A stretch of 41,577 nt of DNA from positions 1 through 41,577 of the forward strand of contig JAKSYS010000568.1 of the NCBI GenBank assembly GCA_022925895.1, read 5' to 3'. Positions 10,064 to 36,186 of this stretch are shown in pieces. Below the pieces are notes generated by a model. It did no database searches. It was not told where the DNA came from and saw only the letters and a list, made by a program, of their open reading frames with translations. Position numbers and translations under genes: made by a program. How positions within the stretch are numbered: position 1 is the first letter of the stretch; each line of letters starts with the position of its first letter. This stretch comes from Fragilaria crotonensis. Lineage: Eukaryota > Bacillariophyta > Fragilariophyceae > Fragilariales > Fragilariaceae.

Positions 10064-10243
10064 ATGAACGGACTCTACATTTTTCAACACGTGACATCAT
10101 CTCACTGACTCACTGATACGCATGGCGATTTCTCAACACAACACGAGCTCCCGCGGATGTTACATCCGCTAGAGCGGGGTACATAGCGAGTCCCGGCAGG
10201 TTCTTGCGCGATGTTAACCCTCTAATTAGTTCATATTTAAAAA
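10064..10243 (+). other. Element 2 3' UTR with conserved boxes and hairpin
   Basis: It contains a perfect 7-bp stem with a 3-nt loop (GCGGATG TTA CATCCGC, near 10153-10169). The box GGGGTACA follows at 10176-10183, then AACCC at 10216 and TAATTAGTTC at 10223-10232, then a short A tail. The same three boxes occur in the same order and nearly the same spacing in element 1 (11958, 12001, 12008). This suggests a 3' recognition structure for the reverse transcriptase. Confidence 0.65.
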
Positions 10244-10258
10244 GGGACTCTGACGAAC
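10244..10258 (+). repeat. 15-bp target-site duplication, right copy
   Basis: Identical to 1420-1434. Read in frame 2 it encodes GTLTN, the same peptide as the left copy, and continues into the RNase H part of element 1. Confidence 0.9.
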
Positions 10259-11898
10259 GCTACAGACGACATTGATACAGTTATCTCCTCATTACCACGA
10301 CCACGGCGACGTCTCCTTTCACACATCCGTCTGACGTCGTCTAGCGACAAATTGTGGGAGGAGTGCCAAAAGAAACAGAAGTTAACGATTGCAACCGACG
10401 GGGGTTTGAAGGGTCATCTAGGGACCTTCGGCTGGATTATCAGTACCAAAGCCAATGAAGTATTGGTGGAAGGAGCTGGCCCGATAGATGGCCCGTACGA
10501 TACGGCGAATTCAACGCGCTGCGAACTTGGAGGATATGCAGCGTCTCTGCTGTTTCTGTCATTGCTTCATTCCTTGTGGGGAAAACAACATAAATGTACT
10601 TTTCGATGGGTGACGGATAGTAAAGCGGCGATCACGAACGTAACAAAAGTAACAGAGCGAACACGTCAGAAACAGCGACAACCAAGCAACGCCGATTATT
10701 TGGGTATTATCCAGACTGAAACGGTAGCTATGCGACGAAGCATCTATCCAGTCTGGGTGAAGGGACACCAGACGGACAGTGGCGGACAGAGCAACGACTC
10801 CAAGATGAACAACCGAGCCGACCATCTCGCAACGTGGTACCGCATGCAACGCTCTCTCCGTCAGTCAGTGGAACGCACGGATCATACTCCAGAATCAAGG
10901 GTATCCATCGTGGTCAACGGCATCAGAGTGGTTGGCCAAGAGCGGAGGCCACACTTCGCTTTCATATTAATGGTTATCACCTCAGGAATTATATCCAGAC
11001 TCGCCAGGGTTGGTCAAATCAAACCTGGGACCGTGTTGATTTCGAACTATTCGGTCGTTTCTATCGCAAACTGACTCCAACTGCTAAAGTTGCACATACA
11101 AAATTCATCTTCGATCAGTGGCACACTGGAAAGCGACGGCAACGAATATCTGCGATTAAGAGTGACAATTTGGACAAATGTCCATGCTGCATGGCTCATA
11201 AAGAGACGACGGATCATGTTCTCCGATGTCAACATAATCCCGATCGGGTGCAGGCACTCCGCGAATTCCGGAAAAATATGTCTCCACGTGAATGTCATCC
11301 AGTCTACACGCTATTGAAGGGCGGTGTGCTGTCTTGGTACGAAGATACGGTATATACTCCCGACATCATGGAATTCCCAGCGAAAATGCGCGATAGGATC
11401 AGATGCGCACTCAAGGATCAAGAAACAATTGGTTGGGACAATGCAGTCAAGGGCTACATGAGTGTGGAGTGGCGGCAACTGGCTGAAGAAGACATGTATG
11501 ATCATGCAAACCAAGAACAGAAAGGCGATGGTTTTCCAAAGCTCACATCTATACTAAGACATTTACATCATGTCAACCAACGTCTATGGAAAAGCCGTAA
11601 CACGGTTCTACATCAATCCGACGAACAGGCATTAAAGGATCTCAGAGACGCGGAAGCTCGCGAGATTCGAGAATTGTATGCACACCCAGACCTACTACAG
11701 ACAGGCGATAGACATTACTGCGATGCTCCGTTGGACAACATCCTCAAGAAAAGTACAGCGTCTCGGCGACGTTGGCTGCGTTATACCCGTATGTCCCGCG
11801 AGCGAATGATCAAAGACGGGAAGAGACAACTTCTGATGACACAGTTTCTTCGACCAACAGCCCCTGTATTACTACAAGCACCAGACATCACACGTTAG
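10244..11898 (+). pseudogene. RNase H and C-terminal part of element 1 ORF2 (3' side of the insertion)
   Basis: Frame 2 from 10244 runs without an ATG through an RNase H domain (ATDGG, TRCELGG, TDSKAA, VKGHQTD), matching the element 2 domain position for position. Near 10939-10950 homology jumps to frame 1, which fits one missing base. It then continues through HINGYHL, a CPCC-x9-H-x4-C motif and a basic tail, to the stop at 11896-11898. Apparent starts inside this stretch are not real, because homology crosses them. Together with 1-1434 this is one broken ORF2. Confidence 0.88.
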
Positions 11899-15760: not shown

Positions 15761-18700
15761 TCATGGCGTTGGCGTCAAGGCTGGAGTTGACGTTGGCGTT
15801 TTCACTTTGATGCTCTTCCCGTTACGACTGCTGCGACGTTTCGATGAACGACGGCTTTTCTTGGAGAATTCCTGGTATCCCGCACTCAAGTCGTTACTGG
15901 GCGGGGGCGTAACTGACAATGATCCAACCACCCCCGGAATCAGCGCGACCGATCTCAAGGATTTCTCAGACGACCGCATCGTACCCTGCACCTTCCTGAT
16001 CATTTTACGAGTTTCTTCGATTCCCTTCTGTTCCCATTCAGCGCGATTCAGTTTGGCATACGTCAAGTATTCGTCGCCGGATACTCCAAAGACGCCGCAT
16101 TCTCCCAATTTGTTGGCCAAAGGAATGACGTACTTGTCAAAGAAAACAAGCTGATCTTGGTACCATCCTTCGGAGGGGTCCTTATCTGAATGGCCGTCAA
16201 TATAGGCTCGATACAACTCTCGGTAAAGCTTTGTGTTCCATTTGATAAAGATATGCCAATGCTGCATGGTATGAGCCACATCCGAGGCCTGAATTATGTG
16301 CTCAATGACAATCGTTGCTTTGCGATTTACATCAACATCCAGCAAGAATGCGTCGTTGGACAGGCTGGGATCGAATGCCTTTTCCCATCTCTTTTTGCGC
16401 AAAGATACCATATCAGGATCCATAATGTCAGTTGCCATCACGACATTAACCACCAGCTGTCGGAAGCGTTTGCGATCCGATTCACTGGCGAATATGCAGG
16501 TTTGCAAGTCGGCGAAGCGAGGATCCATGAGTAATTCCCATGCGACAACAACTGAATTTTGTTCGGCAATGGACTTGTAGTTGAATATGCGAGCAATCCC
16601 GGCCCGTTCCTTCGTCAATTGGGAATTCGACAGGCCGGTATGATCCACGTCGTGAATCAAGGCGGAAAACACTACCGCAAACTGGGTCAGGGGATCAGAC
16701 GAAATTCCAAATGTCGAAAAGTGCAAGTCCGATGCGGTCATGCCAGACTCATTCGCATTGTCTTCCGGTAATATAATTCGCTTCATTAGTTTGTTGGCAC
16801 TCATGGTAACGTGACTGGCATGTTCAAAGTTGTGAAACGGAACTTGTCGATACAAGCTGGCGATGGATGCGACGAACTCCTTCATCTGCATCTGAACTTC
16901 TTTTGGCAGAACAGCAGCGCGACCTCGAGTGGAGGAAAGGCTTGAATTAAACTTTGGAAGGGAAATCACTTCCACCACTTCGTCGATTATGAGTCCACTA
17001 CCCACACCCTCGAACGATTGGCGCGTCTTAAAATTGTCAGACGCATGTTTTCCAAATCGAACACTCCTGTTGTTTTCAGGGGCCATCAATCTATGCTGGA
17101 CAACCTTTTCAAGAAAGCTCATCAATACAGCCACGTTCCAATCAATTAAGCGTTCTTCCTTTACATTAAGTGACAACCGAGACATGACACTTTCAGCGTC
17201 GGACGGCGTATTGCCCGATGTACGCTGGGGGAAGGGAGAATGCGGCTGCTGACGAAGGTAATCCACTTTCCATAGATTTTCATCGGAAATATTCTCCGAC
17301 TCCTGGATCAACGGTGTGGCAGATTCGGTCTTTGGTCGACGCAACATGGCCCAATATGTCTGCATTAGTGAGGATGTAAAGCGAGGTTAGGCTATTTTGC
17401 ACCGTAAAGAGTTATAAACGGGCACACAGAATGCACATACCTGCAATTCCCCTTTTCCCTTGGCAGTGATTTTGCCATCTCGTTTCGTCAACCAGTGTTG
17501 TTTGCCTGCCTCGCGAATCAACTCGGCGGTAGTTTCCGAAACTTGAATCTTCCCCGCTTCACCAGCGCTTTCAATGCGACTCGCAGTATTCATGGTATCC
17601 CCAAAAAGCTGAAATCGTGATTTCGCTCCTCGCAAGACTCCTGCCGTGACGGGTCCACTGTGCAGTCCCACTCGTAGTCCCAAATCGGACGTTCCCGGTC
17701 CCAAGACAGCTTCGAGCTGTTCTGTCAATTGATTGGCAATGGTAAGGATTTTATGGGCGAACCGTACCATGGTCTTGGCGTGATCCTTGTTGGGCGTTGG
17801 CAATCCCGAAACGGCAACGTAACAATCACCAATCGTTTCGACTTTGAACACTCCGAGACGTGTGGCAACAGCATCGAATTCATGATACAAGGTTTCGAGT
17901 AACTTGAAGACTTGACTTGGTTCTCTTTCCGAGCTCCATGCTGTAAAGCCAGCGATATCGGCAAACATCTGTAATGAATGAACAACATATTAGATAAACG
18001 GTGTTTGCAGAAAATCTCATGGTTATTGCATTGAGAACTGAGATCCGACATGTCATAACCGGTGCACTTACCACTGTTGTATTTGAAAACATTTCGGCAA
18101 TGGGTTCATCGTCGTCTTGATGCTCCATAGCATAAACATCATTCGGAGATGTGCTCGTCAAAAAGTTGGTCAATCGTGTCTTGGGGTTGTTGGCATGTCG
18201 TTGTTGCGTCAAACTGAGCCGTCGTCCTCGTCGTCGTCGTAGGGGAATACTGATCAAGGCATTATTTGGAGAAGGAAGCAGATCATTGTTGTTGCTATCA
18301 TTGGCTCTCTTGTACGCCATGGCCTGCCCGAACAGTCGACGGCGAACCACGGCGGGGAAGAGAGATTTGATAATGGCATTGGACTTGGCGGCACTGTCCA
18401 ATACACGCTTCTGTCGTCGATCTACCAGAATGCTGTACAGCACAAAGAGGAATATCGATGTCACGGACAAGACAATCGTTGTCAGCGTATACGTGAAGGC
18501 AAGACCCGTGTGGAATGATTGTTCGTATTCAGTAGTCGGGTAGACAGTGATTGAGTAAATGCAGAATCCTTGTTCACCATTTGTCGTTTCCTCAAAATTT
18601 GTAGATAATGATGAGGAATCGTCAGGATTGGTAGCAGCAGCAGTGTGCGTCATGATTTGTTGACGAAGTTGTTCCAAGGCTTTAAGGACAGACACAGTTT

Positions 18701-19957
18701 TTGCCATTTGTTGGAAGGACACGTCGTGCTGGTCGCCACTGCCGAGATGCGATGCGATTCCCCTCCTTGACAAGGTACGTATGGACTTGTCCACACGTGT
18801 TCTCCAAGACAATGCAGACGGTGGGTGCATCTGGTACAACATTATCAAATAGCGTGATCCATTCAATTTCAGCACCAGTAATGCCAAGAACAATGTCATT
18901 GTCGTCGCCATCTGCGGCAGCATTGAGAATGGGCAACACAGTGAAGGAACGAGGGGTACTGGAATCCTCCAGTGACGAGTTGTTGCCGCCATCGCGGACG
19001 TAATTGGCCGTATAATCGTCCAGAATATTACCAAACAGAGGAGTTTCTGTTTTTGCATTTGAGAAATTAAATGCATTTGGTATGATCGAATCAAGATTCA
19101 ACATATTGAGATGACGTTTTTCCTCGGAAGGATTGATTTGCCAAATTGGTAATTTTCGGTTCGTGGTTGAGTTGGGTATTGACGTGTCGTCCATCCTATC
19201 GTAGTTCGTTTGCCCCAGTCGATAAATCCCCGCTTCGATTGGTCGGATAAAGATATTTTCTGAAATTCCCGCATATGCCGCATGTTCTGCAGCATATTGT
19301 TCCCATTCGGCTTGTTGCTCCGCAGTCACAATAGATGGTGCAAAGAATAGTGATGCGGCCCCCCGATGTTTGCAAATCTCCCAGTGTTTGCGTTTCGAAA
19401 TTTGGTAGTGTAACATTGGGTGTCGTACTGTTGTTGCTGTTGCCATTCGTCGTGTCTGCTTCTGATAATGCAATCAGTGATTTGTAGGCAACCGACAGAG
19501 AGAACAGTGCCCAAAGTTGATTTGTATTTCGTTGTACAAATACATCCAGGAATCGTGTCGAATCACTTTCAAATTCATCTGAAAATCGTTTGTATTCTTG
19601 CGCCGTAGTGTAGGTGTAGGACATGGTTGCAATCGCGGTCCCTGATAATACCAACATGAGGACCACGGACCATTTGACGGCCATAATGTTGGTACTTTTT
19701 GCGATTTCAATCATGTCATCATCACTATCTTCATTATTATTAGTGTTGTTGTTGCTGTTGTTGTTGAGAAAAGGTTGATGATGACGTTGATTGAAAGTGT
19801 TACGACCCTGTGTCTTGTCATTCGACGCTCCCGTGCGCATACATGTGTTGACTGTGTGTGAAAATGAATCATCACAAGCAAAACTCTCGACATCAGCATT
19901 TTCGTACACGTCGGGATGCGAGGCTTGACGTATTTGACGTGATTGTTCTGACAGCAT
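15761..19957 (-). CDS. Receptor-type guanylate cyclase/phosphodiesterase fusion, gene 1 (two frameshifts)
   Basis: Exons: 19957-18072, 17968-17441 and 17359-15761; both introns are phase 0. The protein starts at the ATG at 19957 with an Asn-rich cytosolic tail. A membrane segment follows at about residues 92-113, then an extracellular region and a second membrane segment (TYTLTTIVLSVTSIFLFVLY). The class III cyclase domain has FADIAGFT and TIGDCY for metal binding, guanine-type Glu in KVETIGD, and NTASR. The PDEase_I domain has HNFEHASH, HDVDHTG, SDVAHT and DQLVFFD with the invariant Gln. It would both make and hydrolyse a cyclic nucleotide, probably cGMP, at a membrane. Diatom relatives include pheromone-responsive cyclases of Seminavis. 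The extracellular part changes frame twice (C6 at 19359-19364 and about 18760-18763). Each needs one base removed, so it is a young pseudogene or contains sequence errors. Confidence 0.85.
17360..17440 (-). other. Intron 2 of cyclase/phosphodiesterase gene 1 (81 nt)
   Basis: Minus strand CAG|GTATGT...AATGCAG|ACA. It lies exactly at the junction of the cyclase domain (KGELQ) and the phosphodiesterase region (TYWAM), phase 0. Gene 2 has no intron here. Confidence 0.85.
17969..18071 (-). other. Intron 1 of cyclase/phosphodiesterase gene 1 (103 nt)
   Basis: Minus strand GTG|GTAAGTG...CATTACAG|ATGTTT. It separates NTTV from MFADIAGF at the start of the cyclase domain, phase 0. In gene 2 the equivalent [12 protein letters not shown] is uninterrupted. 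Confidence 0.88.
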
Positions 19958-21629
19958 GAGTGTATTGTGTTGTGATTAAGTTGCGCTATGCAAGTGAGTG
20001 TGATACTGAAGGAAGGAGGAGTACAAGGTACGCTAGCAATGCAGTCTGTCGCTGCAGCGAAACAGCAAAGTCGATGACGATTCGTTGTTGCGTGTCTTGG
20101 GTTATTGTTCTTGAGACGTTGATGCTTTGTATGCCTGCAGTAGGGTACAAGTGGCGAAGGAGTAGTAATAACGGTAGGTATTCGAAGTACGAGAGCAATA
20201 CCAGCTGATTGAGTAAAGAGTTGGACAACATCCGGCGCAAACAGACACAATGGGCTGTTACCACTTTTCCGCGAGTCACAGGAGCATTCATAATAAATTT
20301 TTAACCAATCAACCATACATACAAGCGGAGTCTACTGTATGTGTGCTGAGACAAAACTTCCTTCCTCGTCAACAGTCAGGAAATAGTCGTATCTGGCAAA
20401 ATCACTGCTGCAACTCGCTCGATAAAGGACTATATAAGCCCAAGAGGCTTAATTCTCGATGTGTGGTAGTAACAGCAGAATTGCAGTACTCCAGTGCCAC
20501 TTCTTACATCGAATTCCACACAAACGTCCATAACAACATGACCAGTGACCGGTCATCAAGCTCCCAGAAATGAGGCTTAGTCGGACGTCGGCAGGCATCC
20601 AGACTCGAGACATTCAACACTTAAGCGCAAAATAACGGATTTAAATCCGATTAACCGTTTCCATAAATACGTACTACCTTCCGTTACTGTCAGATCCGTT
20701 GTTTTCGCTTGATCCTGATTCCTGACCTTTTGGTTTTTATGCCTGTCTCATCGGAAGTAGGTTGTGACTTGTAACCGTGGACGTGCATCAAATGTCTGAT
20801 GAGAAAGGGCATATGACCCCCAACATTGGTCCAAATAGCACACTGAAGGATGCTTCCTGCTATAGAATGGTAGATTGTTCGAATAAAACGACAGTGTGTG
20901 TGCTGAAGGAATGTCCGTGGGATTAGGACAAGTTGAAATTCAACATCAGGACATGCGAAACAAACCAATCATTCAACACATAACAGGACGTCAGCATCAA
21001 TTCAACACCACCACAAACCCAGCTCATTATATTTTCACATGCTGTAATCAGATGATACGAAGAGGGGGGCAGGCTGACAAACAAAATGAAGTTACCCACT
21101 TTGGCGGTGCATGTTGCATTACACTCTAGTGTACGATTGTAGCAGCACTTGTAGATACTCCACGGCCTTTATTTGTGTAAATCTTGAAATCCTGTTACCT
21201 TACACACGTTGTCCCGTAGGCAACCTTTGATTGCCCTTCATATCAAGTAGGTGTTCATCAACTCCGTTGCATACAAAGACAGAATTCGTTCATTCGACAA
21301 GCTTTGTACGTAGTGGCGATGGCACCGTCAAAAACTACGGAAAGACTCGGTTCGTCCAATGGCTTCTCGACACACGCACACGGCACGACACATGGCGCCC
21401 AAGTTCAGGACCATTATCGACCCCGACCCTGGAGGAAAAGGTGCCAAGAGGCGAATAGTGCGACAGCCGGTAGCGTTTTCGCAAGACTATATAGTAACTG
21501 CACATTAGATTCTAGTATCGATATATTGTTCATCAGATACTACTTCGTTTCCGACTTCAGCAGGGTTGCCTTAACTCAGCCTTACGATTGGTTCGGAACT
21601 TAGAATAGCGGACTGGACTTAAAACGTCG
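19958..21629. other. Intergenic between the tandem cyclase/phosphodiesterase genes
   Basis: This is the upstream region of gene 1 and downstream region of gene 2. GACGTC occurs near 20593 and 20988 and resembles the core of diatom cAMP/CO2-responsive elements, but it is too short to call. No gene seen. Confidence 0.35.
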
Positions 21630-24600
21630 TCACACCAATGGAGGAATATTATCGGGAACTTCGTCCTTCGGAAGTAGTGGAATATCCATTTTTTTGGGTT
21701 CGATCTTTTCAGCAATCAGCAATTCGTTCGCTGGTGATATTGATGTGATAACACTTGGTGGTGGTGTGTTATTTTCCCCATGTCGCTCTTTGTAATTCTT
21801 CAGCATGTTGGCGACCACAGTTTTGCCTTTGATTACCCATTCTTCACGATTTTCCAGAGCAAAACCAAGATATTCGTCGCTGGCGACACCAAACACACCA
21901 CATTCTTTCAGCTTCTTTGCCAAAGGAATGATGTAGTTGTCGAAGAACCATATCTCACCGCCGTACCATCCTTCCGAAGGGTCCGTGGCGGCACGTCCAG
22001 CAAGATACGCAGTGTACATTTCACAAAACAACTTTTCGTTCCATTTGCTGTAGATATGCCAGTGCTGCATTGTGTGAGCGACATCTGATGCTTGAATAAT
22101 GTGCTCAATCACAATGGTAGCCTTGCGGTTCATATCAACGTCAGACATGGAGGAGCACTTGGATTCGTCAAAGGCTGTCGCCCACCGTTTGTCGCGCAAC
22201 TGTTTCAATTCCTTGTCAACAATGTCAGTTGCCATAACAGAGTTGACAACTAGCTGCCGAAAACGGCGTCGCTCCGTTTCCGTTTCGAAGATACAGCATC
22301 GCAAGTCTTGATATTGATCATCCATAAGAATACCCCATGCAATATCCACCGAATTTTGCTCTGCAACGCTCCTGTTGTGATATTTTGCAGCGATTGGTGC
22401 ATTTTCTTTGACAAGTTGAGCGTTTGTGACGCCATAATGATCCACATCGTGGATGAGAGCAGAGAATACAATAGCGAGTTGGCAGAGAGGATCGGAGCTT
22501 ATCCCAAAAGTTGAAATATGTGAAATTCGTTCCATCGACTCAAGACTGTTTTGCACTTCTCCGACGGATTTTCGTCGTCGCAACCGACGCTTCTCTTCAT
22601 CTGGTTGAACAAAGTCGGTCTCGCCTGGAGCAATAATTCGCTTCATCAACTTATTTGCCGAAAGTGTCACATGACTGGCATGTTCCAGATTATGGAATGG
22701 CACATTGCGGTAACAATCTGCGATCCTCGAAATAAAATGATGAAGCTGGCCCTTGACTCTGTCAGAGATTCTGGAGGCATCTGGGACAAGGGTTCCAAAT
22801 CGAATCGAAGCCTCTGAGTAGGTTGGAAAGCTTATAACCTCAGAGACTTCATCAAACGCACAAGTTACCGTATCATCTTCGGTGAACTCGGCTGAGTGAG
22901 TGCTGTTATCCATACGACGTCTGACTTGTTGCTGCGTTCGAATCGAGCGCCACACCACAACCTTCGATAAAAGTTCACCAAATATTTCAACGTTCCAATT
23001 AACCAGTCGGGCTTTTTTATCGGCATCAACTCCATAGCTGTCAATCGTTGTGTTGCCCCATGTGTCAGCAGCCGTCAAAGCCTTGCGCGGCGAATCAAGT
23101 GAACCAGGTGGCTTGGTTTCGGGTGCATCATGATTGTTATCATTGAGACCGCCATGACCATTTCGCCCAGTCTTGGAGGTGGGTGCTCTCTGAGGCCGCA
23201 GCCACCAGGTCTTCATCTCCCCTTACCCTTTGCGTTCACGAGACCCTCACGTTCGGTGAGCCAATGCCCTTCCCGCCCCGTCTAAGAAGCATAGCAGTTT
23301 CTTCTGATACATGAATTCTATTCCGCGTTCCTGTGCTTTCCATGCGACTCGCAGTGTTCATCGTATCTCCAAAGAGTTGGAACCGAGCCTTTTCACCCCG
23401 TAGCACGCCCGCCGTGACTGGACCAGAGTGCAGCCCGACACGAATCGCCAAGTCACTCGTTCCTGGACCCAGGGAAACTTCCAGTGACTTTACTAATTCG
23501 TTCATTTTGAGCAGGCACTCGTACGCGAATCGAGCCATCACCAAGGCGTGGTCCTTTTTGGACACAAAAATGTGAGATAATATGTTCGTACAGTCAATTC
23601 CAGCATCTTTTCAAATCATGCGCACGACACATACCTGATTCGGATCCGGAAGTCCAGTAACTGCAACGTAGCAATCTCCAATTGTTTCGACCTTGAAGAC
23701 ACCAAGCCGGGACGCTAATTCGTCAAACGCGTGATACAGAGTTTCAAGAAGATAAAACACTTGAGAAGGCTCCCTCTCCGAACTCCATGCCGTAAACCCT
23801 GAAATATCCGCAAACATAATCGTGGTTTCTGGAAACAAGTCCGCAATGGGATCATCGAGTCGGTATTGTTCCATATCGACTCTATTTTGACTTGCGCTCC
23901 GATGTAAAAAGGTTCGTAGTCTCGTGGTGGCTGGCTCCGCCACTCGTAGGTCGTCGTTGCTGGCGCGACGGGCAATGGAATCCCATCGTCTCATGGCAAT
24001 TCGTCGTGTTTGTTGCGTCGTCGTCGTCGTCGTCGTCCGATCCTTGGGCATTGTTGTGCCAGTGGATGTGGTCGTGGCAGAGGAGGTTCCTTCTTGTTGT
24101 GCAAAGAGACGATTTCGCACCACTGCGGGGAAGAGAGAATTGACAACATTACGGAAACGAACAGCTTCACCCATGACATGTTGTTGCCGTCTGTGGACCA
24201 GCACATCGTAAAGAGCAAACATTAAAATAATGAATGCAAAAATTACGGCGGACACGGCGGTGTAGATGGCAGGCAAATTCGTCTTGAAGGCAGCCTCGAA
24301 CGATGATGTTGGGTATACAGAAAGACTGTATCCAAAGGTATCCCACGTGTTGCTTCCATTGTTGCTCTGCCAAATTCCAGATGTCATGTTTTGTATCGCC
24401 ACGGCGGATACCTTTGTGGTGACGACATAATTGTCGTATTGAGGGTCATGCAAATCTCCATCTCCGAGGAAGACCACGTACCCATCAAAAATCTCAAACG
24501 ACATGACGTCTCCACCACCAGTCACCAAAACAGCAACGATGGATCCTTCTGATGGTGAGACTGTCTGGAATTGAGTTAGCCAGTCCACATCCAGCTGAAC

Positions 24601-25554
24601 AGCACCGACTACCGACTGAGGTGGTGTGATTTGATTGAATACGGGTGTGGACAGAAGGGACCTGGGAGCGGTTCCCTTCATATCCGACATGATGGGTGTC
24701 ATTTCCTCCATTAAACTGTTGTACATGTCCTGCAATCCTGGAACAGCGTAGTAGTTGGTAAGAATAAATTGCGCATTTTCCGGAGCATTGCTGGTCGACA
24801 ATAAAAAGCCGGGAAAGTAAGGTCCAGGCCCTGGATCTGGAATAAGCGTCCCGTTCGGCCCTGGCATGTAAATGCCATCGGCCAATGTTCGGCAGGCAGA
24901 TGATGATGACGACGAATCAACCGCAGTTGTACAAGACGATGCATCGTTTGGTTGCACAGTCAATTGATTGGCATTCTCCAAAACAAATGCCTCCCACGAG
25001 GCCCGAGTCTCGTCCGTGACGAGTGGAGAAAACAAAATTGTATGCGATCCTGTGATAATGCGATCTCCCTTGAGTCGTAGGTCAAAGTCTGGTAGGAGAG
25101 AGTTTGGCCATGTCTTATTGTAATACTGAGCATCCGATGTCAGGGACACGGAGACGGAAATGGATGTCAGGATTTTCACTTCAAAGATGGTCAAGAAATT
25201 GTCGGTCAATTGGTCTGCAAGAGATTCAAAGTAGGTTTCGAAGAGTGATTGTTCCCTTTGGGCAGTAGATTCGTGAATGAATACCGTTCCCAAGACCCCG
25301 ACAGTCACCAAAACAGCCAAAAAGATTGACCTTTGAATGCAAACTTTCTGAGAATCTTTCTTGACTTGTTCGGTAAACAGGCTGCCTTGCATTTGTACCA
25401 CATTATCCATCCTTCGGCCTTGAGCTGTGTCTGCTCCATGAGCTGGAGTTGGCATCGCTGACAATGCGGACAAGGGCATTGAATAATCATCTTCTTGATT
25501 TAGTTGCAAATCGAACGAGTCTTCTGAGGGATGGAATGATGACCGGCGCTCCAT
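21630..25554 (-). CDS. Receptor-type guanylate cyclase/phosphodiesterase fusion, gene 2 (two frameshifts)
   Basis: The start is the ATG at 25554 (an upstream in-frame TTG is not a start). Exon 1 is 25554-23635 and exon 2 runs from 23553 to 21630. Membrane segments lie at about residues 76-94 and 429-450, enclosing a roughly 330-residue extracellular domain that is uninterrupted here. A Thr/Arg-rich linker leads to the cyclase domain from residue 579 ([30 protein letters not shown]). The phosphodiesterase has [21 protein letters not shown] and GGEIWFFD, where the purine-binding Gln of the family is Glu. Near the domain junction the frame changes twice within 60 bp (23267-23279 and C4 at 23219-23222). 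Each needs one base added, and [17 protein letters not shown] lies between them, so this was coding sequence. It is a tandem paralogue of gene 1. Confidence 0.85.
23554..23634 (-). other. Intron of cyclase/phosphodiesterase gene 2 (81 nt)
   Basis: Minus strand CAG|GTATGT...CAAAAAG|GAC, phase 0, between LPDPNQ and DHALVM inside the cyclase domain. Gene 1 reads LPTPNKDHAKTM without interruption. Confidence 0.85.
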
Positions 25555-26772
25555 AGTTGCACAAATACTTCTCAATGCTTCTCAATGCTAACGGTAGCTG
25601 ATTACTTCAGGACCAAGGATCAAGACTTGTCGCAGGTAGTATAGTCGGTACTGCAGAAGGGGTCCAGTACTGTGACAGTGTCTTCCAAGCTTGCAGGGAC
25701 AAGTACTTGTGTGATACAATTCTTTGTAATCAATTCCAACAGAGATCCGAGAACAGAGCGCTGTCCAAATTGATCAATGAAGTACAACGAAGGACCTTTC
25801 ACGTATCACCTATTGCAGTAAGGATATAATGCCCGAGTACTGTCACTTGTATAGCAATAGTACGCTTTCGCTCCAAACTTTCACGCTGTGCACCAACTGA
25901 GTGTCCTTGGGTGTTGCGTTGACGTGTTGTACTGATTACTGGTACCTCGTAGCCGTGTGTATTGCTAACAACAATCTTGTATCAATGTAAACACCTGTCC
26001 ACAAACGTTGCACAACACACCGTACACCGATCTTTGATTCAAGATATCAAATTCGTTACCGTGCGCTTTCCAAATTGGTGCTCCTTGGTATGATAATGCC
26101 CGAACAAGTACGAACTCTCTATCACTCTCACTCTCTAACTAGAAGTTGTCCAAAAGATGTAGGAGATGATTCCACAACGGCACACACCTTTTTTCGGATG
26201 GGTACCAACGTGAGGGAGTTTCTGTTGTGGTTGTTGTTACGTAAGCAGCGGAGGCAGCGGCGGAGGCGGCGGCGCAATAAAGGCACTATGATTGCGTGCG
26301 GAGTTTCCAACAACCCGTATGGCACTCCGCGTGTGTTTGTCCATATCCTACTACTACAATACCTACTTGCCAAAAAGTCCAGAGAGCACGTGTTTTGGGT
26401 CATGGGTCATGGGAAGGGTCATTTCATAGTTCTGATTCACGAGATTTCACACTTCGAAGAACCTACAATTAGAGTCATCATGTCCCATTTTCGAACACTT
26501 CTAACCCCAGATAACTATACGAGTACCGGTAGTTTTCAGATTTTGTAACTACACATGTAGTCTGAGTGATGTCGTGTACCATTGAATGTCGTATCCTCAT
26601 CCGAACGACAGTCCACAGACATGGACACCTATGCGTCGGATTTATTGTAGCAAAGGCATATTCACCAAGTGCGACTGATAGAGCCAGTCGCAATGTCCTC
26701 GAATCGAGCTGGCCATCACATGCACCATCGTACGATACGGGAGTAATGACCTCAAATGAATACTGGTACGAA
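25555..26772. other. Upstream region of gene 2; no supported gene
   Basis: Just upstream of the gene 2 start the 10-mer CTTCTCAATG is repeated back to back (about 25570-25589). A plus-strand ORF from ATG 26090 to 26548 (about 152 codons) contains an Arg run from a GGCGGAGGCGG-type microsatellite and looks spurious. AGTACTGT occurs near 25666 and 25836, not enough for a regulatory call. Confidence 0.3.
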
Positions 26773-27039: not shown

Positions 27040-29685
27040 ATGCCAAGGAAGAGGAAGGCATGTCCTTTGTCCATTGACAATGCATCAGTTAAAGTAGGAA
27101 GACCTTCAAAAGATGGGTGCACCATTGAAGATGCTGTAAAATTGGTGAGTTACTCTTTTAAACGGGCTTTCAAATCACCATTGTGAATTGAGTTTTGATG
27201 CACAACGTATCGATAAGTGAAGGACTCATAATTTTTTTCTACGTGATTTTTGTACCATAAAATTATATGCAGGTCGTATGCAACAAGGTGTCACTCATTC
27301 AAGCGCTTCGTGCTTGTCTGCTCCATGAAAGCGTTACGGTACAAAGCCTTCATTATCATGTGAAAAGGGCTCTTCGGAATGGAGGGATGTGTCTCAGTGG
27401 AAGCCTCAGCAAGAGCAGCAAAGAAGGAATGGTGATTGATACTCACGGCCCTAGTATGACGACAGAGCTAGCAGACGAACAAACCTCTCCTTTGACCGAA
27501 GCATCGTCCTTATCCTTTTCGGATTCTACGAAGCGGATCAGAAAGACATCAAAGCAAGCTAGCACAGCTCGTATTCAGGCGCAACAAGAAAGAGGATTAC
27601 TCTCGTCGCTTTAAAGAGGCTTTCAAAGAAGCCACGAGGATAATCAAAGAAAAGAAGGAAGGCGGGTCGTCGAATGAAACAGCCCAACAAGTTGTAACCA
27701 GGCTCAATGCAGAATACAATCTGAACGGAACAAGGAAGCTTAGTCGAACAACTGTTTATAGAGAAATCAACAAAGGTAATATTGGGATGAGCCCTCCGAA
27801 GAAAGGTCCCGTACCAAAATCCCCGATTTGTTGTTGGATGTTACGGCCGCTCATACTGAGGTATGCCAAGTGGGAACTGATGGGGAATTACGAGGACAGG
27901 AAATAAAGAGAGTACTTGGAGCTGCTGTCTCAGGGACTAAGTATGACAACAAGTTCACTATTGAGTCAGCATGGAGAAAGCTTCGATCCAAGCACCCACA
28001 GCGAATCACAGCAGGAGGCCAGATGTCCGTGGAGGATGCTCGGTCAAAGTGGACAACCCATGATAACTTGCAACAGTGGTTTGATGATGCCAAGAAAGAC
28101 TTGATTTCTACGGGACTTGTGATTGATAGAGAAGTAAGGAATGGCAACGGTGATTTGTTGTCAGAGTTAGATTTTCGTTCTGATCAGGTGACCCGTCGAA
28201 TCATAAACATGGATGAGACACACCACCATGATCTCTCAATCACTGGTGACAAGGGTGGGTCTCGGTCAGTTGTTTATCATAATCCTGATTATCAGAGAGG
28301 TTGCAAGCGAAGTGTTAAGGCGGGTAGGCACGTCACGGGTGTCTACGCAACGAACGCAGCTGGCGAGGCATTGCCTCCGATGTACATTTTCGATTCAGGT
28401 GCAAAGCTGGAGCAGAACTTTCGGGTGAAGACTAAGTGGTTGGAGGGACTTCCCGCCATCAAGGGAAGGTTTGGATGCCCCGAGCTGATTGAGGAGTCAA
28501 GTTTCTATTCTGTGAGAGCTCGAGGTTCCATGGATGACTCGCTTTTCATTGAGTACATCGAGAAAGTAGTGTTGCCACTATACCCCAACATCTCCAAGAC
28601 AACCAAGTTCGATCCTGTGAATGGAAGACTGCTTTGTGGTCCTGTTATTCTCAAAGTTGATTCAGGTCCCGGGCGAATCGTTGCTTCAGAGGAGAGCATC
28701 TCGAAGCGAGCCGACTTCCTTGAAATGGGACTCTACATTCTCATGGGCCTCCCGAATGCGACTAGTGTCCAACAAGAGATGGATGCACTTTATGGGGCTT
28801 TCAAATCAGCAACTTATGCTCGCGGTGAAGTCATCTTGATTGAAAAATGAGAGATCAAGCCAATCATCGAAGCAGAATGCTGGAGGAAGAGGCTGACGAG
28901 GACGATGAAGCCACCGAAGAAGAACAAGCTGATGGTGCCAATACAGGACGCGCCGAGGGTGTCTTGTCTCTTGGGTTTAATGATTTGGCAACAGTGGTAA
29001 ATGGAAGGGAAAATGATGACGTTTCATTGAAGCCATTCGACAAGTGCTTTACCAAAGAAAAAATCCTCGGTTCGTGGAGGAAGGTGGGTTTTGTTCCGTT
29101 TACGAGAAGTTGTCTAAGTAACAAAAGAGTGCGTCATGAATTGGGACAGCAACAGAAAAATCATGCTCTTGAGGAACTCAAGGTGAAGTATGATGACCTT
29201 GTGGCGTTGTCAAAGGACGATGGACTCAATGCTGGAGTATTCTCTGCCACCATTCCCGTTTCTAGTCGTGCGATGAGAGTTGCAAATGATGCAGAGCAGG
29301 TGAAGAAGCTGCTTGAAACGAAAGGCGCCTTATCGGCATCTTCAATCTGGAATGTTTGTGGCAGTCGTATTGGCAATTCAAGGATTACTCTTCAAGCTCA
29401 AAGGCGCAGCTTGCCATCAATGCGGCAAAGCTGCTGCACAGTTGCAGAACAGAAATGATCGGCAACGGAAGATCCTTGCAAACGCACAAAGAGCTCTTGC
29501 AAAGTATCGTTCATGCAGTGAATCACTGACTGATAAAGACTGGGTTGATATCATACGTTGGGTTCTCCTGAGTCAAAGGCAGAGGGGCTTATGAAGGATC
29601 TAAAGAAAAAGCTGCAATTGTTGCGAAGCTCGCAACTCTTGAACGGGAGTGGACGACCTACATACCACTTCCAGAGGCCACCTAG
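27040..29685 (+). pseudogene. DDE transposase, spliced and multiply frameshifted
   Basis: The start is the ATG at 27040 (MPRKRKACP). Exon 1 ends at 27144 (TIEDAVKL) and exon 2 starts at 27273. The N-terminus has a basic stretch and a helix-turn-helix-like VSLIQALRACL region. The catalytic core shows NMDETHHH, LKVDSGPGR, then LPNATSVQQEMDALYGAFK, giving Asp, Asp and Glu or Asp about 39-41 residues apart. Downstream, SWRKVGFVPFTRSCL and a Lys-rich coiled tail end at the TAG 29683-29685. Frame changes occur near 27590, at A4 27816-27819, at A5 28843-28847, near 29400, near 29573 and near 29610, so the gene is dead. It is a DDE-superfamily enzyme; pogo/Tc1-like affinity is a guess based on the possible TA target. 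Confidence 0.8.
27145..27272 (+). other. Intron of the DDE transposase (128 nt)
   Basis: TTG|GTGAGT...TATATGCAG|GTC, phase 0, joining TIEDAVKL to VVCNKVSL. Both flanking frames are open and the intron contains stops in frame. Confidence 0.75.
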
Positions 29686-30041: not shown

Positions 30042-31938
30042 GGTATTTCTATAGACACAGCAACACAAGCCCGAGATTCGAATGCCTACATAAAGTTGCT
30101 GTGTGATTTTATTCACACTATATTTCAAAGAGTCCATTTATTTAGCAAGCTCGACCTGCTCGATTAGGGAAAAACGCCCGTCCATCAGTACGCAACCGCT
30201 GGTACTCACTTCCGAGGGCTTGTTCCAGTCAATGTCCCCACCAAACCCACGGGCAGGATTGCTTGCCCTCGTTTCGATGCCGATAAACCGCACCGCATCA
30301 TTGCTGGAATCCACCGAAGCAACGTCACGGCCCGGCGCGAGGCCACCTCGTATTCCAACCGAAAGGCACAGGTACTACTTCGCGCACACAGTACACGCAC
30401 ACGTTGCATACGTCATGGCAGACCATGAACTCCCACCATGGCTGCGCCAATCACTTTCGGTGCCGAGTCTTTCAAGGACTACATGTGACAATTCATGATG
30501 TAATCCAAAGTCATAAGCAAGGATTTCCATAAGACCTGTGCTTTTCACCGATGTCATCCTGTGACATGCCTGCCCGCGTTTTCCCTCCCGTCGTTCGAAT
30601 TGGTTTGTGGTGATGCTATATTATTTCCCATTCCCTCCCATATCTTGATGGTCGACTCTGAGAGTTTTATGTTCCACTGCCTATCTGAGACACCATATGA
30701 CCCTGACTCTCGTTCCGTGTTCGCCCATGGCAATAATGGTTCTATGCCTTGCAACACTCTGTTCTACTCGAATTGGGCCATCTTGGGGAACAGCACTACA
30801 GATTCAGAACCATACTATGTAGCAGTTTCCATAGTATTTTGGGACTTATACTTCAAACTCTTATTACTTCAATTGCACTCTTGCCTGTCATCAGCCAATT
30901 GTAAGGGGAAAAGGTACAAGGTCTATTGTTGAGAAAGCATCTATTCCTCAACACTGTCTGCAACACCCAACTGTCCATGTTGTGAACACTACCAATGCCA
31001 AACACCATTGCCAAAGTGAATTACATACGGTTCTTCGGTATTGGTGGACCACCCAATCTCCCACCAACACCCCCAAGCGCGGTAGGGCTCACTACTTGGG
31101 GGGAGGACGAGATCACACAAAATCCAAGAATTATCCTTGCTGTCACTTCCCCTCTCCATCATTCTTGATGCTTTCCTTTCCCGTTACTGGGTCTGATAAA
31201 CTGTTCCAATTCATAGGTAGTAGCGGATTCTTACCTTCTTGGCAGGGTGAAGTAGTATATAATCAAAGAAAAGGTATGAAAGGGATACTAGAGTAAGAGT
31301 GATTGAAGGTACTGGTTGACACCCATTACCCATTCCTGTGTCATACTATTGAATCAAATCCGCTACGACATCGCCACCAAGTCGACTTACGAAAAAGGAA
31401 GAGTTGAACAAGAAGTTCGTAAGATATATATAACGGCTAGTTGTACGCCGTCCATGAATCGCCAACACACAACACACACGCCTTTCATGTGTAACGGTCA
31501 AAAGTAACCGTACGACCAGCAGTTGGACGGCACATACTTTGCATACCAGTACCAGAGTAGGAAATGCCAATATTTTGCCTACTACTGGAGTATCAGTTTT
31601 CGTACCGTATCGTCCGTACTTAAACTCATCTCGCAGGTACAGTATGTACGACACATACAGCGCATGCAGTGCCTAGCATTGCTGGTCAAACATACAAGAG
31701 AATATCTTCCGAAGGAAGGACAAGACTACGCTTTCCTTTGCTGCTACTGCTGTTGCAAGTCAAGTCATCGCCTGGCGCTGTTGAGTCGCTTTGCATGCTG
31801 ACAAGGAATAAACCAGCACTGTCTTTTGTGTGAATGACTCGTTGATTCGGAATCTATCGACGATACTTGATTGCATATTGCATCTCACACACTCAAAACT
31901 TGGACTTTGCCGACTGCGATATTTTCCAGATCAGAACC
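30042..31938. other. Intergenic upstream of the chromatin gene
   Basis: Several overlapping short ORFs on both strands (for example 30103-30498 plus and 30757-30554 minus) resemble nothing I recognise. A TGTTGAG...CTCAACA pair at 30926-30952 is a small palindrome; I could not extend it into a long terminal repeat. A TATATATAA stretch lies near 31425. The frame of the chromatin protein is already open from 31867 but lacks an ATG until 31939. Confidence 0.35.
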
Positions 31939-34900
31939 ATGGAAACGGTACGAACCGTGGCCGAATTTCCAACGAATGGTCGTGTGGATAACTGCAATGA
32001 TGATCATGGCGATGATGGAATTATCGAATTCCGATGTGATGTTTGCCGGATTGCTACATTCCCTACGTTCGAGGAAGCATTTGATCATGAACAGACATGT
32101 ACGAATAGTCCTCCTCCTATTCTTGTGGCACCGGTCCGCGCAAGCAGCGTCCGCGCAGGCGTCGCTTCGGTTCCCAAATCAGATCCGTTATTAGTACCAG
32201 TACCATTATCACATTCATCCACAAACGGTACAAAAAGTATGGATCAACCGATACTTCCAGAATCAACTGCAACTGCAAATGCGATACCTTCACCACCAAG
32301 TGCGTCGACTGTTTTATCAACAACAACAACAACAACGACGACGATTGACAGAAACAACAACAATGACGCAAGGCACAATACGATACGATTTGCTCCGAAA
32401 TGCGCCACCAAATCTTGTATAACATTCCTTACGACTAAAAAAGTCGATGTGACGAATGGTGGAGCGAGTATGAAACCTTCATCGACAGCAACAATGCATC
32501 AAACCAAGACACACACCAGTGATCCCGGGAAAGCCAATCGTTATCATCATGATGACGACGATATCACTGCAACGCCACCACCACCACCAACAACAAATTC
32601 TGATGCAGCACGTATGCCAACAGATGATTCCAATTCGAATACCGGTAGTTCGCTTCATGGAAACTCGAATGTTTGGAATGATAACTCGACGATCAATGCC
32701 CGACGCAAAAAAACACCGAAAAAGTCTACAACGGCTTCTCCTCCGACGATGAGCACCACCGATCCAGCGACGGCGGCGACGACGCTATCACCTACGAGTC
32801 CTTCCGGTAGCAATATCATGGTTTCGTTCAATGAAGCAGCAGCAGCAACACATTCCTCGTGTACTACGACCAAGGCTCGTGGAGGCTCCAATGCCAAAAA
32901 TCGCAAACCAAAAGCTGCGTCCCGTCCGTTGAAAGCGACCGCAACTCAAGCCCCTGTTGGCGCTCCAAAACACATCTTGTTGGCCACCCCGACGAATTCT
33001 CAGGGAAAGCTCGATACTGGAAACACGACCGTTGATGCAAGGAGTAGTCCCACGACAGTGAGCAATCGCAATGCCTTTGTCGGTCAACGAGTCTACGCCC
33101 AATTTCCTGGCAACAGCATGTATTATTGGGGAATAATTACCAAGGTATCAAGCACTTCACTTCCATCCGTCGAAACGCAGAACTCGATATCAAACGGTGT
33201 TGTCCCACTCATCACCTATCAGGTGTGGTTTGACGACGAAGACGTCGCGGAGGGAATATCGGGCAAGGACATGATAACCGAAGAAGAGTACCTGACGAAG
33301 TGGCTACTGACATACGATAACCAGCCGCCTCCTGCGCGCCCGCGTCATTTGATCGAATACAATTTGGATGACAATGGCAATATCATTGTCCCAACTACAT
33401 CCAGCAGTGAGGATGGCGGCAAAGGTACTCATGTCAGTCCAGTTGCGAAACCGAAAACGCCCGTCGATTTGTTTTTGGAGAAGTGTGGAAATTGTTTGTT
33501 GTGTGTAAGACCAGAATGCGGAAAGTGCATGACCTGTGTCCGTGCTGAGAAGAATCCATCCGAACCGCGAGGTGTTTGCTTCCGCAAGGTACGTTTGTTT
33601 GTCGTTTCAACTCGCGCGCGCGATGTGACTTTCTCCGACCGTTCGTGTCTCAATTTTGTTACCAACCACCCACAGATGTGCCTCGAAGTTGACGTGGAGG
33701 AAAAGGCACAACCAGCTGTTGGATTTCCCTACGGGTGGAGGTTCTACTTCCAATCGACCGATGCGTCATCGACCGTCGTCACACTTCCTATCGGACTCGT
33801 CCTGATCAGTCCGTCGGGAAAATCGTTTGACTCGCTGGATGCTGCATTCCGTCGACATCGCAAATCATTCGAGCGCAAAGTCAATTTAAAGACGGATTTT
33901 TTCAATCATATTGGAGAAGGTTGTGCAGATGAGAGCATCGAACAACGCAATGTTAAACGAAAGGTAGTACCACCCCAGACGAAGAAGCGTCGTAGAGTGT
34001 CGGACGGAAAGTTAAAGAGCGCATCATCACTCAAGAAGCGGACACTCTCCGCCACAAAAGAGGTCGGATCCCGAGTATTCTGCAAGTTCACGAATGGCGA
34101 ATATTATTGGGGTGAAATCTCCGACAGGAAAGAGGACGAGTCGGGAAACGTTACTTATGCAGTTCAATTTGACGACGGTGACTTTCTCGACAGTATTGCT
34201 GACACGTCGGACGACCACCCTGACGGCAATATCTACACAGAAGCTGGATTCTTCAAGAGCTCGAAAAAGTATCCTCCCAAAAGGCAATCCACGTCCGTTC
34301 CGCCGGCGTCCAAGCGCATGAAAGTGGTCCAGCCGCAGACGCTTCTTTTGCAAAACGACAAGAACGGTCAAGTCGGGTACACCCTCGCAGAACTGTATCG
34401 GAAGCGATGTAAGAAATGTAGTGCGTGCAAAAAGGAAGACTGTATGCGCTGCAATAGTTGTACCAACAATAGAAACGGTTTTGTCGAAGAGACCGAATGC
34501 TGCGTTTGGAAGGTAAGTTGCTTGGCGTCTTGGTCACATTTCATGGACAACGACCATCCTAATTCCTTCTCTTGCGCACTCCTTGGTCTTGAGTTACAGA
34601 TGTGCGGTTTTATTAACAAAGATTTGAAGAAACAGCCTGCACCAGGTTTCCCCCCAGGCTGGATGTTCGCATCGGGGACAGGACACATTTTAACGATCAC
34701 TGCACCATGCGGAGATGAATTCCATTCGTTCGAGCAGGCGTTGAATCGTTGTAGGGGCGAAATTCAGGATGCCAAAGCTGCCCAGGTTGAGTTTGAGACA
34801 CATGTTGGGGGCTCATTGCTGTGGAACGACGACGGGCATTTTCTCGTAGGAAAGGAATACTATCATGAATGGACAGATGCCGATGGCAGAAAAAAGGTGA

Positions 34901-36186
34901 TCTACGGAAGTATCACTGGATGTGAGCGCGACAAGCTGGATAAGGATTACCTATGGTTTACAGTGACTTATAATGACGAGTCCTTTGATGACATAGTCAA
35001 ATCAAAACCCTCTTATGAATTGGACTTCAAACCCATCAAAAGGATGTCCCTGGAGTGGGCTCTTGGTGGGTACTTGGCATACGCTTCCAAACATGGGTCA
35101 TCTCTCCTCAAGGATTCCGCTGTCTCTTCATCAGTTCGTAGATGGCTGACACCAGACATGCGCATAGAGGATGTGGTTCCAGGTCCTGGTGGCAAGGAAA
35201 TGCCACGACTGACATTGGTTTGGAATGGATTTCGTCTTGTTTTCTCAGTTCGACAGTCCACTATTCTCAATGCCGGGTTGGGGGTGTTTGTCCAATGCAC
35301 CTCTCTGGTTCCACTTCGCACCAGCTTGAAACTCAGGAAGGGCGAAATGTTGGATCTGGGGGTTTATGCCCCATTACGAAAGGAGGATTTGAAGGAAGAG
35401 TGCGTCTTTTTGGTGAAGAACTTCATCATGGGTTTGAAATGTGAGGAGTGGACGTTTGATGCAGGCCAAACTCCCGCATCACATCAATTGGACATAACGG
35501 ATGATTGGACTGGTGAGCTGCACGAAATTGCAGCACGGCGTATCCTGCCATACATGAACGAGTGTAAAGTGAAGGATAATCCCTCAGTGTACGCGGCGCA
35601 TGATCCAGAGGGTGTACTGCACTACATGCTGGATGCGAGGGTCAGTGATTTGACACTACCTGCGGATGGGTCCATGGTGGAGCTTTTCATCAACTATGGC
35701 CCCAAATACGAGCGTATAAGGATCCGGAGGAACTACTCTTTCCTCCCAGCTGCAGAACAACTGTCCCATGCAAAATCTGTACATCAGGAGAATGCGGAGT
35801 ACCTTGAGGAGATCTCTGGATATCAGGGACCTGAGGTCACCTGTTGTGTTGAGTTTGTTAGTAAGATTGTCAAAACTGGAGCACTGCCTGATGAATTCCT
35901 TCTGAATGCACTGTGTGTAGCAGTGGCCTTGCGCCATCGTGGGAAGATGTTATCGGATGAGATGGCTGATTCTTCTCCCTTTGCTATTGAATTTTCCGGA
36001 ATCATGGGTCAATTTGAGGTCGTGGTGCACGATTTACTACATCGAATGCTGAATGAAACATTTTTGGATCTTGAGGCTGCTGACGAGCATGGTATTCTAC
36101 TGTCTATGCTGGTGAATGCTGTACTTACGGATTTGCCCTCAGGCCATGCCGAAAGGGTAGTTTCCTGCTTCTGTTCTAGCAAATGA
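31939..36186 (+). CDS. Multidomain chromatin protein: zinc finger, Tudor-like/CXXC/MBD-like repeats, SET-like C-terminus
   Basis: The start is the ATG at 31939 in context ACCATGG. Exons are 31939-33588, 33676-34512 and 34600-36186, giving about 1357 residues. Order in spliced numbering: a C2HC finger (Cys33, Cys36, His50, Cys54); a long Ser/Thr-rich disordered region; Tudor-like 1 (about 381-450, YYWGIITK and VWFDDED); CXXC finger 1 (from 516, CGNCLLCVRPECGKCMTC); MBD-like 1 (about 566-620, GFPYGWRF, LISPSGKSFDS). Then come Tudor-like 2 (about 680), CXXC 2 (from 795, CKKCSACKKEDCMRCNSC), MBD-like 2 (about 845), Tudor-like 3 (about 912), and a SET-like region (about 1033-1210, NAGLGVF and ELFINYGPKYE). 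CXXC domains bind unmethylated CpG and MBD folds bind DNA; a nuclear DNA-reading role is inferred. No frameshift or stop interrupts it. Methyltransferase activity is doubtful because the NHxC motif is not visible. Confidence 0.82.
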   Translation: METVRTVAEFPTNGRVDNCNDDHGDDGIIEFRCDVCRIATFPTFEEAFDHEQTCTNSPPPILVAPVRASSVRAGVASVPKSDPLLVPVPLSHSSTNGTKSMDQPILPESTATANAIPSPPSASTVLSTTTTTTTTIDRNNNNDARHNTIRFAPKCATKSCITFLTTKKVDVTNGGASMKPSSTATMHQTKTHTSDPGKANRYHHDDDDITATPPPPPTTNSDAARMPTDDSNSNTGSSLHGNSNVWNDNSTINARRKKTPKKSTTASPPTMSTTDPATAATTLSPTSPSGSNIMVSFNEAAAATHSSCTTTKARGGSNAKNRKPKAASRPLKATATQAPVGAPKHILLATPTNSQGKLDTGNTTVDARSSPTTVSNRNAFVGQRVYAQFPGNSMYYWGIITKVSSTSLPSVETQNSISNGVVPLITYQVWFDDEDVAEGISGKDMITEEEYLTKWLLTYDNQPPPARPRHLIEYNLDDNGNIIVPTTSSSEDGGKGTHVSPVAKPKTPVDLFLEKCGNCLLCVRPECGKCMTCVRAEKNPSEPRGVCFRKVRLFVVSTRARDVTFSDRSCLNFVTNHPQMCLEVDVEEKAQPAVGFPYGWRFYFQSTDASSTVVTLPIGLVLISPSGKSFDSLDAAFRRHRKSFERKVNLKTDFFNHIGEGCADESIEQRNVKRKVVPPQTKKRRRVSDGKLKSASSLKKRTLSATKEVGSRVFCKFTNGEYYWGEISDRKEDESGNVTYAVQFDDGDFLDSIADTSDDHPDGNIYTEAGFFKSSKKYPPKRQSTSVPPASKRMKVVQPQTLLLQNDKNGQVGYTLAELYRKRCKKCSACKKEDCMRCNSCTNNRNGFVEETECCVWKVSCLASWSHFMDNDHPNSFSCALLGLELQMCGFINKDLKKQPAPGFPPGWMFASGTGHILTITAPCGDEFHSFEQALNRCRGEIQDAKAAQVEFETHVGGSLLWNDDGHFLVGKEYYHEWTDADGRKKVIYGSITGCERDKLDKDYLWFTVTYNDESFDDIVKSKPSYELDFKPIKRMSLEWALGGYLAYASKHGSSLLKDSAVSSSVRRWLTPDMRIEDVVPGPGGKEMPRLTLVWNGFRLVFSVRQSTILNAGLGVFVQCTSLVPLRTSLKLRKGEMLDLGVYAPLRKEDLKEECVFLVKNFIMGLKCEEWTFDAGQTPASHQLDITDDWTGELHEIAARRILPYMNECKVKDNPSVYAAHDPEGVLHYMLDARVSDLTLPADGSMVELFINYGPKYERIRIRRNYSFLPAAEQLSHAKSVHQENAEYLEEISGYQGPEVTCCVEFVSKIVKTGALPDEFLLNALCVAVALRHRGKMLSDEMADSSPFAIEFSGIMGQFEVVVHDLLHRMLNETFLDLEAADEHGILLSMLVNAVLTDLPSGHAERVVSCFCSSK
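33589..33675 (+). other. Intron 1 of the chromatin gene (87 nt, in frame, no stop)
   Basis: AAG|GTACGT...CACCCACAG|ATG, phase 0. It splits CXXC finger 1 between its last two cysteines (GVCFRK and MCLEV). Retained, it adds 29 residues with no homology to the finger. Confidence 0.85.
34513..34599 (+). other. Intron 2 of the chromatin gene (87 nt, in frame, no stop)
   Basis: AAG|GTAAGT...GAGTTACAG|ATG, phase 0. It splits CXXC finger 2 at the homologous place (CCVWK and MCGF). It has the same length as intron 1, though the sequences are not obviously alike. Confidence 0.87.

Follow-up and report, generated by a model that had tools for sequence, protein, structure and literature searches.

The window analyzed here, a 41,577-nucleotide stretch of the diatom Fragilaria crotonensis (contig JAKSYS010000568.1), carries a forward-strand gene at positions 31939–36186 whose product contains a Tudor–CXXC–MBD-like block in two copies, ahead of a SET-like region. 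The duplication of this block is certain: modules 1 and 2 share 30% identity over 259 columns once two introns are removed, and Smith-Waterman comparison gave a z-score of 29.5 for the spliced modules and 29.3 for the unspliced ones, none of 500 shuffles scoring as high in either case (BLASTP E = 6e-18, unspliced). Taken piecewise, copy 1 and copy 2 matched at z = 9.7 for the Tudor, 6.5 for the CXXC, and 16.7 for the MBD-like part. The original prediction, which described a chromatin-reader architecture with one module present twice in the same order, is supported on both points. We favor, with moderate confidence, a protein that serves as a multivalent reader of histone marks, or as a scaffold, and that ends in a divergent SET-like tail.

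The gene occupies an intact open frame with its first ATG at 31939, as had been claimed. The ORF comprises 1415 codons and lies within a frame that is free of stops from 31846 to 36186 (1446 codons). With three cyclase and phosphodiesterase ORFs from the window as the training set, codon scores were higher in this frame than in the two other forward frames for eight of nine ORF parts, the exception being 34513–34599, which corresponds to intron 2. Read as an ORF with splicing, the intact gene is probably composed of three exons: exon 1 (31939–33588) runs from the start codon into the first CXXC finger, stopping short of its last cysteine; exon 2 (33676–34512) holds that cysteine, MBD-like 1, a basic linker, Tudor 2, and most of the second CXXC finger; and exon 3 (34600–36186) holds the last cysteine of the second finger, MBD-like 2, Tudor-like 3, the SET-like region, the C-terminal tail, and the stop codon. 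The protein after intron removal is 1357 amino acids long.

We infer that two 87-nt segments within this frame are introns, both overlooked in the original prediction. Intron 1 (33589–33675, AAG/GTACGT...CACAG/ATG) and intron 2 (34513–34599, AAG/GTAAGT...TACAG/ATG) are both in phase 0, occupy the matching point of the two repeats, and lie in frame and free of stops, 87 being divisible by three. Splicing them out turns GVCFRK...QMC into CFRKMC and CCVWK...QMC into CVWKMC, so that the CX4C cysteine pair closing each CXXC finger is complete; in spliced numbering, removal of intron 1 restores C547-x4-C552. The T content of the intron segments is 33–34%, compared with 21–26% in all exon parts except the C-terminal tail (also 33%), and intron 2 scores as non-coding (−0.217 per codon).

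Between the two copies, the intron flanks are alike as protein, with the CXXC and MBD-like z-scores given above, and their DNA is identical at 17 of 42 and 31 of 60 positions. The translated introns are not significantly similar to each other (66 of 500 protein-level shuffles scored as high), and their DNA agrees at 29 of 87 positions (184 of 2000 shuffles as high). The matching intron sites suggest that the block was copied along with its intron. We also considered intron retention as a finger-by-finger switch, in which 29 residues would be put into a zinc finger with the frame kept, and found it unsupported; the chance of both introns being stop-free is ∼20% by shuffling and thus unremarkable.

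Tudor, CXXC, and MBD-like parts

The Royal-family or Tudor-like fold proposed for both copies is firmly supported. Pfam Tudor_5 (“Histone methyltransferase Tudor domain 1”) is the best Tudor model for the protein, matching it as a whole at E = 6.6e-7 and 29.5 bits, slightly below the curated cut-off of 31, and matching copy 1 alone (Tudor 1, 33073–33270) at E = 1e-4; its best stretch, 708–748, falls in Tudor 2 (34060–34182). In comparisons with KDM4A, Tudor 2 reached z = 10.4 (0 of 1000 shuffles as high) and Tudor 1 z = 2.6 (28 of 1000). All 12 PDB sequence matches of Tudor 2 are KDM4A, KDM4B, or PHF19 chains, the best being KDM4A (E = 0.034), and a profile of the two copies matched 53BP1 in the PDB at E = 0.52 and weaker. 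When the AlphaFold2 model of module 2, a poor model with a mean pLDDT of 33.4, was submitted to Foldseek, the top two matches were Tudor domains (E = 0.64 and 0.89, probability >0.9); among the matches listed, for which the lowest E was 0.64, many Tudor domains (ERCC6L2, Spindlin, SETDB1, and 53BP1) were mixed with unrelated proteins.

The Tudors retain F/Y positions, within YYWG and FDD, that contribute to the methyl-lysine cage of 53BP1-type Tudors. They are likened to KDM4A/53BP1-type Tudors by these sequence and profile matches, but here they are single domains spaced by other parts rather than tandem or interdigitated. The third Tudor-like repeat of the original prediction (34846–35040) is marginal: it resembles KDM4A (z = 3.2, 10 of 1000 shuffles as high), but its similarity to Tudor 1 and Tudor 2 is not significant (128 and 41 of 500 shuffles as high, respectively), and it has no Pfam or PDB match.

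After intron removal, both copies present eight zinc cysteines in CXXC spacing, arranged in two clusters. CXXC-1 (33484–33681), which encloses intron 1, has them at residues 516, 519, 522, 527, 530, 533, 547, and 552 of the spliced protein; CXXC-2 (34408–34605), which encloses intron 2, has them at 795, 798, 801, 806, 809, 812, 826, and 831, with an extra cysteine at 825. The Pfam zf-CXXC match, which in the unspliced protein had E = 0.0018 and a best stretch at profile positions 8–36, became 3.7e-4 (8–48 of 48) and 3.4e-3 (6–48 of 48) for the spliced fingers, with scores of 20.9 and 17.8 bits, both below the curated cut-off of 26.5. Each finger compared with each of the KDM2A and MBD1 fingers gave z = 6.8–7.6, with 0 of 1000 shuffles as high in all four comparisons, and the two-copy profile placed KDM2A (E = 0.022) and MBD1 (0.27) at the top of its PDB matches, with alcohol dehydrogenases next (0.28 and weaker).

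The CXXC finger is thus well supported, but its description as “unmethylated-CpG-type” is not. In the alignment with KDM2A, the KFGG linker is deleted in both fingers, and KQ is replaced by RG in copy 1 and by TE in copy 2. The eight-cysteine spacing of KDM2A/DNMT1/CFP1-type fingers is therefore present, whereas the combination of KFGG with KQ or RQ that marks type 1 (CpG-reader) CXXC domains is found in neither finger; HQ is likewise missing. Passages of PMC3685328 dealing with these residues describe the KQ/RQ motif as contacting CpG, TET3 as lacking KFGG and still binding DNA via HQ, and MBD1 fingers 1 and 2 as being without a functional loop and seeming to serve protein contacts. Because TET3 binds DNA without KFGG, the missing dipeptide weighs more here than the missing linker. 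A second account states, in its section on MBD1, that altered key residues of the DNA-binding loop prevent fingers 1 and 2 from binding DNA, although its introduction loosely assigns methylated-DNA binding to the same two fingers (PMC4394467).

MBD-like 1 (33724–33870, FPYGW...SPSGKSFDS) and MBD-like 2 (34648–34761, FPPGW...APCGDEFHS) share FP-GW and (S/A)P-G--F-S with MBD2 (LPPGW...SPSGKKFRS). Both reached z = 2.8 against MBD2 (15 and 18 of 1000 shuffles as high, respectively), with best local alignments of 9 and 4 residues, each at a different end of the domain; for comparison, the KDM2A finger and MBD-like 2, which are unrelated, gave z = 2.2 (46 of 1000). The sole Pfam match of MBD-like 1 was DUF7028 (E = 0.15). 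The MBD-like fold originally proposed is thus weakly supported, and the profile searches reported below are negative.

Reading of methyl-CpG by MBDs involves, among other residues, a set of arginines and a DxY stretch. In a by-eye alignment, T/G and D/H occupy the MBD2 arginine positions, and neither copy keeps the DVYY (DxY) stretch. The 5mC-binding MBDs discussed in the relevant part of PMC4914596 conserve a solvent-exposed tyrosine and an N-terminal lysine or arginine, which are altered in the non-binding mammalian Mbd3. With CXXC fingers lacking KFGG and KQ/RQ, and MBD-like copies lacking the MBD2 arginines and DxY, the suggestion that the protein reads DNA methylation is not supported.

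The SET-like C-terminal region

The region at 35209–35748 contains GLGVF, KGE, NEC, and ELFINYG in SET order, at residues 1055, 1076, 1149, and 1190 of the spliced protein. A loose SET signature, written after viewing the sequence and fitting only 8 of 16 true SETs, matched 11 of 100,000 shuffles and one of the 72 window ORFs of at least 100 amino acids, namely this ORF. A stricter pattern, found in 2 of 100,000 shuffles, was set aside since it fits not one of the 16 true SETs. The usual SET NH is NE here, and there is no cysteine at residues 961–1060 or 1191–1243 (spliced), and therefore no pre-SET or post-SET zinc site in these intervals. The SET-like end of the original prediction retains an unusual motif order, but no profile or fold method detects a SET domain; a Foldseek search with the model of the SET half returned, among the matches listed, mostly kinases and other low-scoring matches, and no SET.

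Competing readings and known systems

Under the histone-reader or scaffold interpretation, an ancestral Tudor–CXXC–MBD-like block that would already have carried its intron underwent tandem duplication within the gene. The Tudors, given their aromatic positions, would most likely grip methylated histone tails, and the CXXC fingers, each most likely folded around two zincs, would act as type-2 fingers with a structural or protein-binding role and not as CpG readers. The MBD-like parts would probably contact DNA or protein without specificity, and the SET-like region, for which the motifs suggest the fold, may either methylate lysine or serve as a docking pseudo-enzyme. A histone-mark reader is likelier than a DNA-methylation reader because the CpG-reading parts look lost; a role as writer depends on the SET-like part, itself unproven.

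Several results weigh against this interpretation. No SET match was obtained in Pfam, NCBIfam, or the PDB, and a custom SET profile returned hits for 568 of 1000 shuffles, 164 of which equalled or exceeded the score of the region itself. This profile combined 15 loci with MLL1, after 4 of 19 fetched loci (L001, L015, L018, and L019) had been excluded as partial, and it is biased toward NHSCEPNCY-type SETs because that pattern fetched its loci. Pfam gave no MBD match, none of the six PDB profile matches was an MBD, and the pairwise matches to MBD2 are as short as noted above. Both AlphaFold2 models were unusable, with mean pLDDT values of 35.2 and, for module 2, 33.4. The aromatic-cage argument draws on general knowledge of 53BP1-type Tudors, and the codon score of intron 1 is slightly coding-like (0.048 per codon). 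Finally, no relatives were found in viral or prokaryotic contigs, which would hardly be expected to contain a eukaryotic one: pattern searches gave 52 and 3 matches in viral contigs and 4 in genome contigs, none confirmed by tblastn, and two candidates (L020 and L021) proved to be chance matches with in-frame stops. Because the collections searched hold viral and prokaryotic contigs, this absence says little.

The same negative results in Pfam, PDB, NCBIfam, and the custom profile speak for a C-terminal part that is some other, undescribed domain, leaving the protein a pure reader or scaffold. We regard this as possible though on balance unlikely, as the GLGVF, KGE, NEC, and ELFINYG motifs stand in order and the loose signature, albeit a post hoc pattern, is rare among shuffles. 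Rather doubtful is a SETDB1-like reader-writer, in which the Tudors and MBD-like parts bring an active SET lysine methyltransferase to chromatin. Its best Pfam Tudor model would be of the histone methyltransferase type, as observed; Tudor, MBD-like, and SET-like parts share one chain as in SETDB1; and the GxG, N, and ELxxxY SET motifs occur in order. It has to contend, however, with a SET lacking profile or fold support, with the missing pre-SET and post-SET zinc sites, and with NE in place of NH. More doubtful still is the version in which such a reader-writer would have arisen independently in a microbial eukaryote, its two blocks serving as a multivalent nucleosome reader and its SET, active and highly divergent, as the writer of a histone mark.

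That the protein reads DNA methylation, its CXXC fingers binding unmethylated CpG and its MBD parts methylated CpG, is improbable. CXXC and MBD-like parts do adjoin, twice, as in MBD1, and the TET3 finger binds DNA without KFGG, as described in the passages of PMC3685328 cited above, but KFGG and KQ/RQ/HQ are absent from both fingers, as are the MBD2 arginines and DxY stretch from both MBD-like copies. A chance ORF or decaying gene would fit the lack of relatives, if the collections were suitable, and the transposon-like ORFs in the window; it is scarcely credible for a frame open over 1446 codons in which both copies, though diverged, are intact, keep all eight zinc cysteines, and have introns at matching sites.

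Among known proteins, SETDB1 is the nearest functional analogue of the histone reader or scaffold proposed here. It is described in the relevant part of PMC8397983 as having three Tudors, an MBD, pre-SET, SET, and post-SET, and was overlooked in the original statement that no animal protein has this layout; SETDB1 as so described lacks CXXC and the duplication. Like SETDB1/SUV39-related H3K9 methyltransferases, the diatom protein unites Tudor_5-type Tudors and MBD-like parts with a SET-like C-terminal region in a single chain, but it differs in its CXXC fingers, its duplicated module, a third Tudor-like part that follows MBD-like 2, and its unconfirmed SET. Because the pre-SET and post-SET cysteines are absent, we do not assign it to the SETDB1 family.

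MBD1, in the account of its layout in PMC3685328, has one MBD, three CXXC fingers, and no Tudor. MBD-like and CXXC parts likewise occur in one protein here, and the fingers, without CpG-reading residues, resemble CXXC-1 and CXXC-2 of MBD1. The diatom protein differs in its Tudor and SET-like parts, its block order and duplication, the lack of a type-1 CXXC finger, and the loss of MBD reading residues; with a Tudor and two CXXC copies, it does not belong with MBD1. No protein with such a layout was found among the titles and abstract openings listed in searches of open-licence papers. A term search within a review of marine stramenopiles and within a diatom paper gave no mention of CXXC or MBD.

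Surrounding features and implications

Near the N-terminus, a C2HC-type finger motif recognized by eye (C33-x2-C36-x13-H50-x3-C54, 32035–32100, forward strand) had been overlooked in the original prediction; its sole Pfam match is DUF7128 (E = 0.075). Between this motif and Tudor 1 lies a low-complexity linker rich in Thr, Ser, Pro, and Asn (32290–32850, forward strand), in which short simple repeats with ACA/ACG runs are visible by eye. The basic linker of exon 2 includes a stretch, KRKVVPPQTKKRRRV (33955–33999), that looks nuclear-localization-like by eye.

Elsewhere in the window, large retroelement-like ORFs occupy 2004–11898 on the forward strand. The ORF at 4343–10063 has a weak endonuclease match (E = 0.036), that at 10241–11074 an RNase H match (E = 3.7e-7), and that at 10720–11898 a weak match to a zinc-binding reverse transcriptase (RVT) model (E = 0.045); by eye, the latter two look as though the 3′ part of the first had been copied a second time, incompletely. 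In two adjoining reverse-strand genes (15761–19975 and 21630–25581), Pfam places a 3′5′-cyclic nucleotide phosphodiesterase domain after a nucleotide cyclase domain; the genes form an apparently tandem, intron-interrupted pair. At 27780–29458 on the forward strand, two overlapping frames resemble, by eye, a broken transposase-type gene, the first of which has only an ODR4-like Pfam match (E = 0.016, below its cut-off).

The two putative introns illustrate that an in-frame, stop-free intron can lie hidden in an apparent single exon and blur the detection of a zinc finger. If orthologues confirm the architecture, it would represent a layout of known chromatin modules for which no description was found among the open-licence papers listed, and would reveal how functions in reading, and possibly writing, histones are put together in a non-model eukaryote. 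It would also indicate that CXXC and MBD-like folds can persist without CpG reading.

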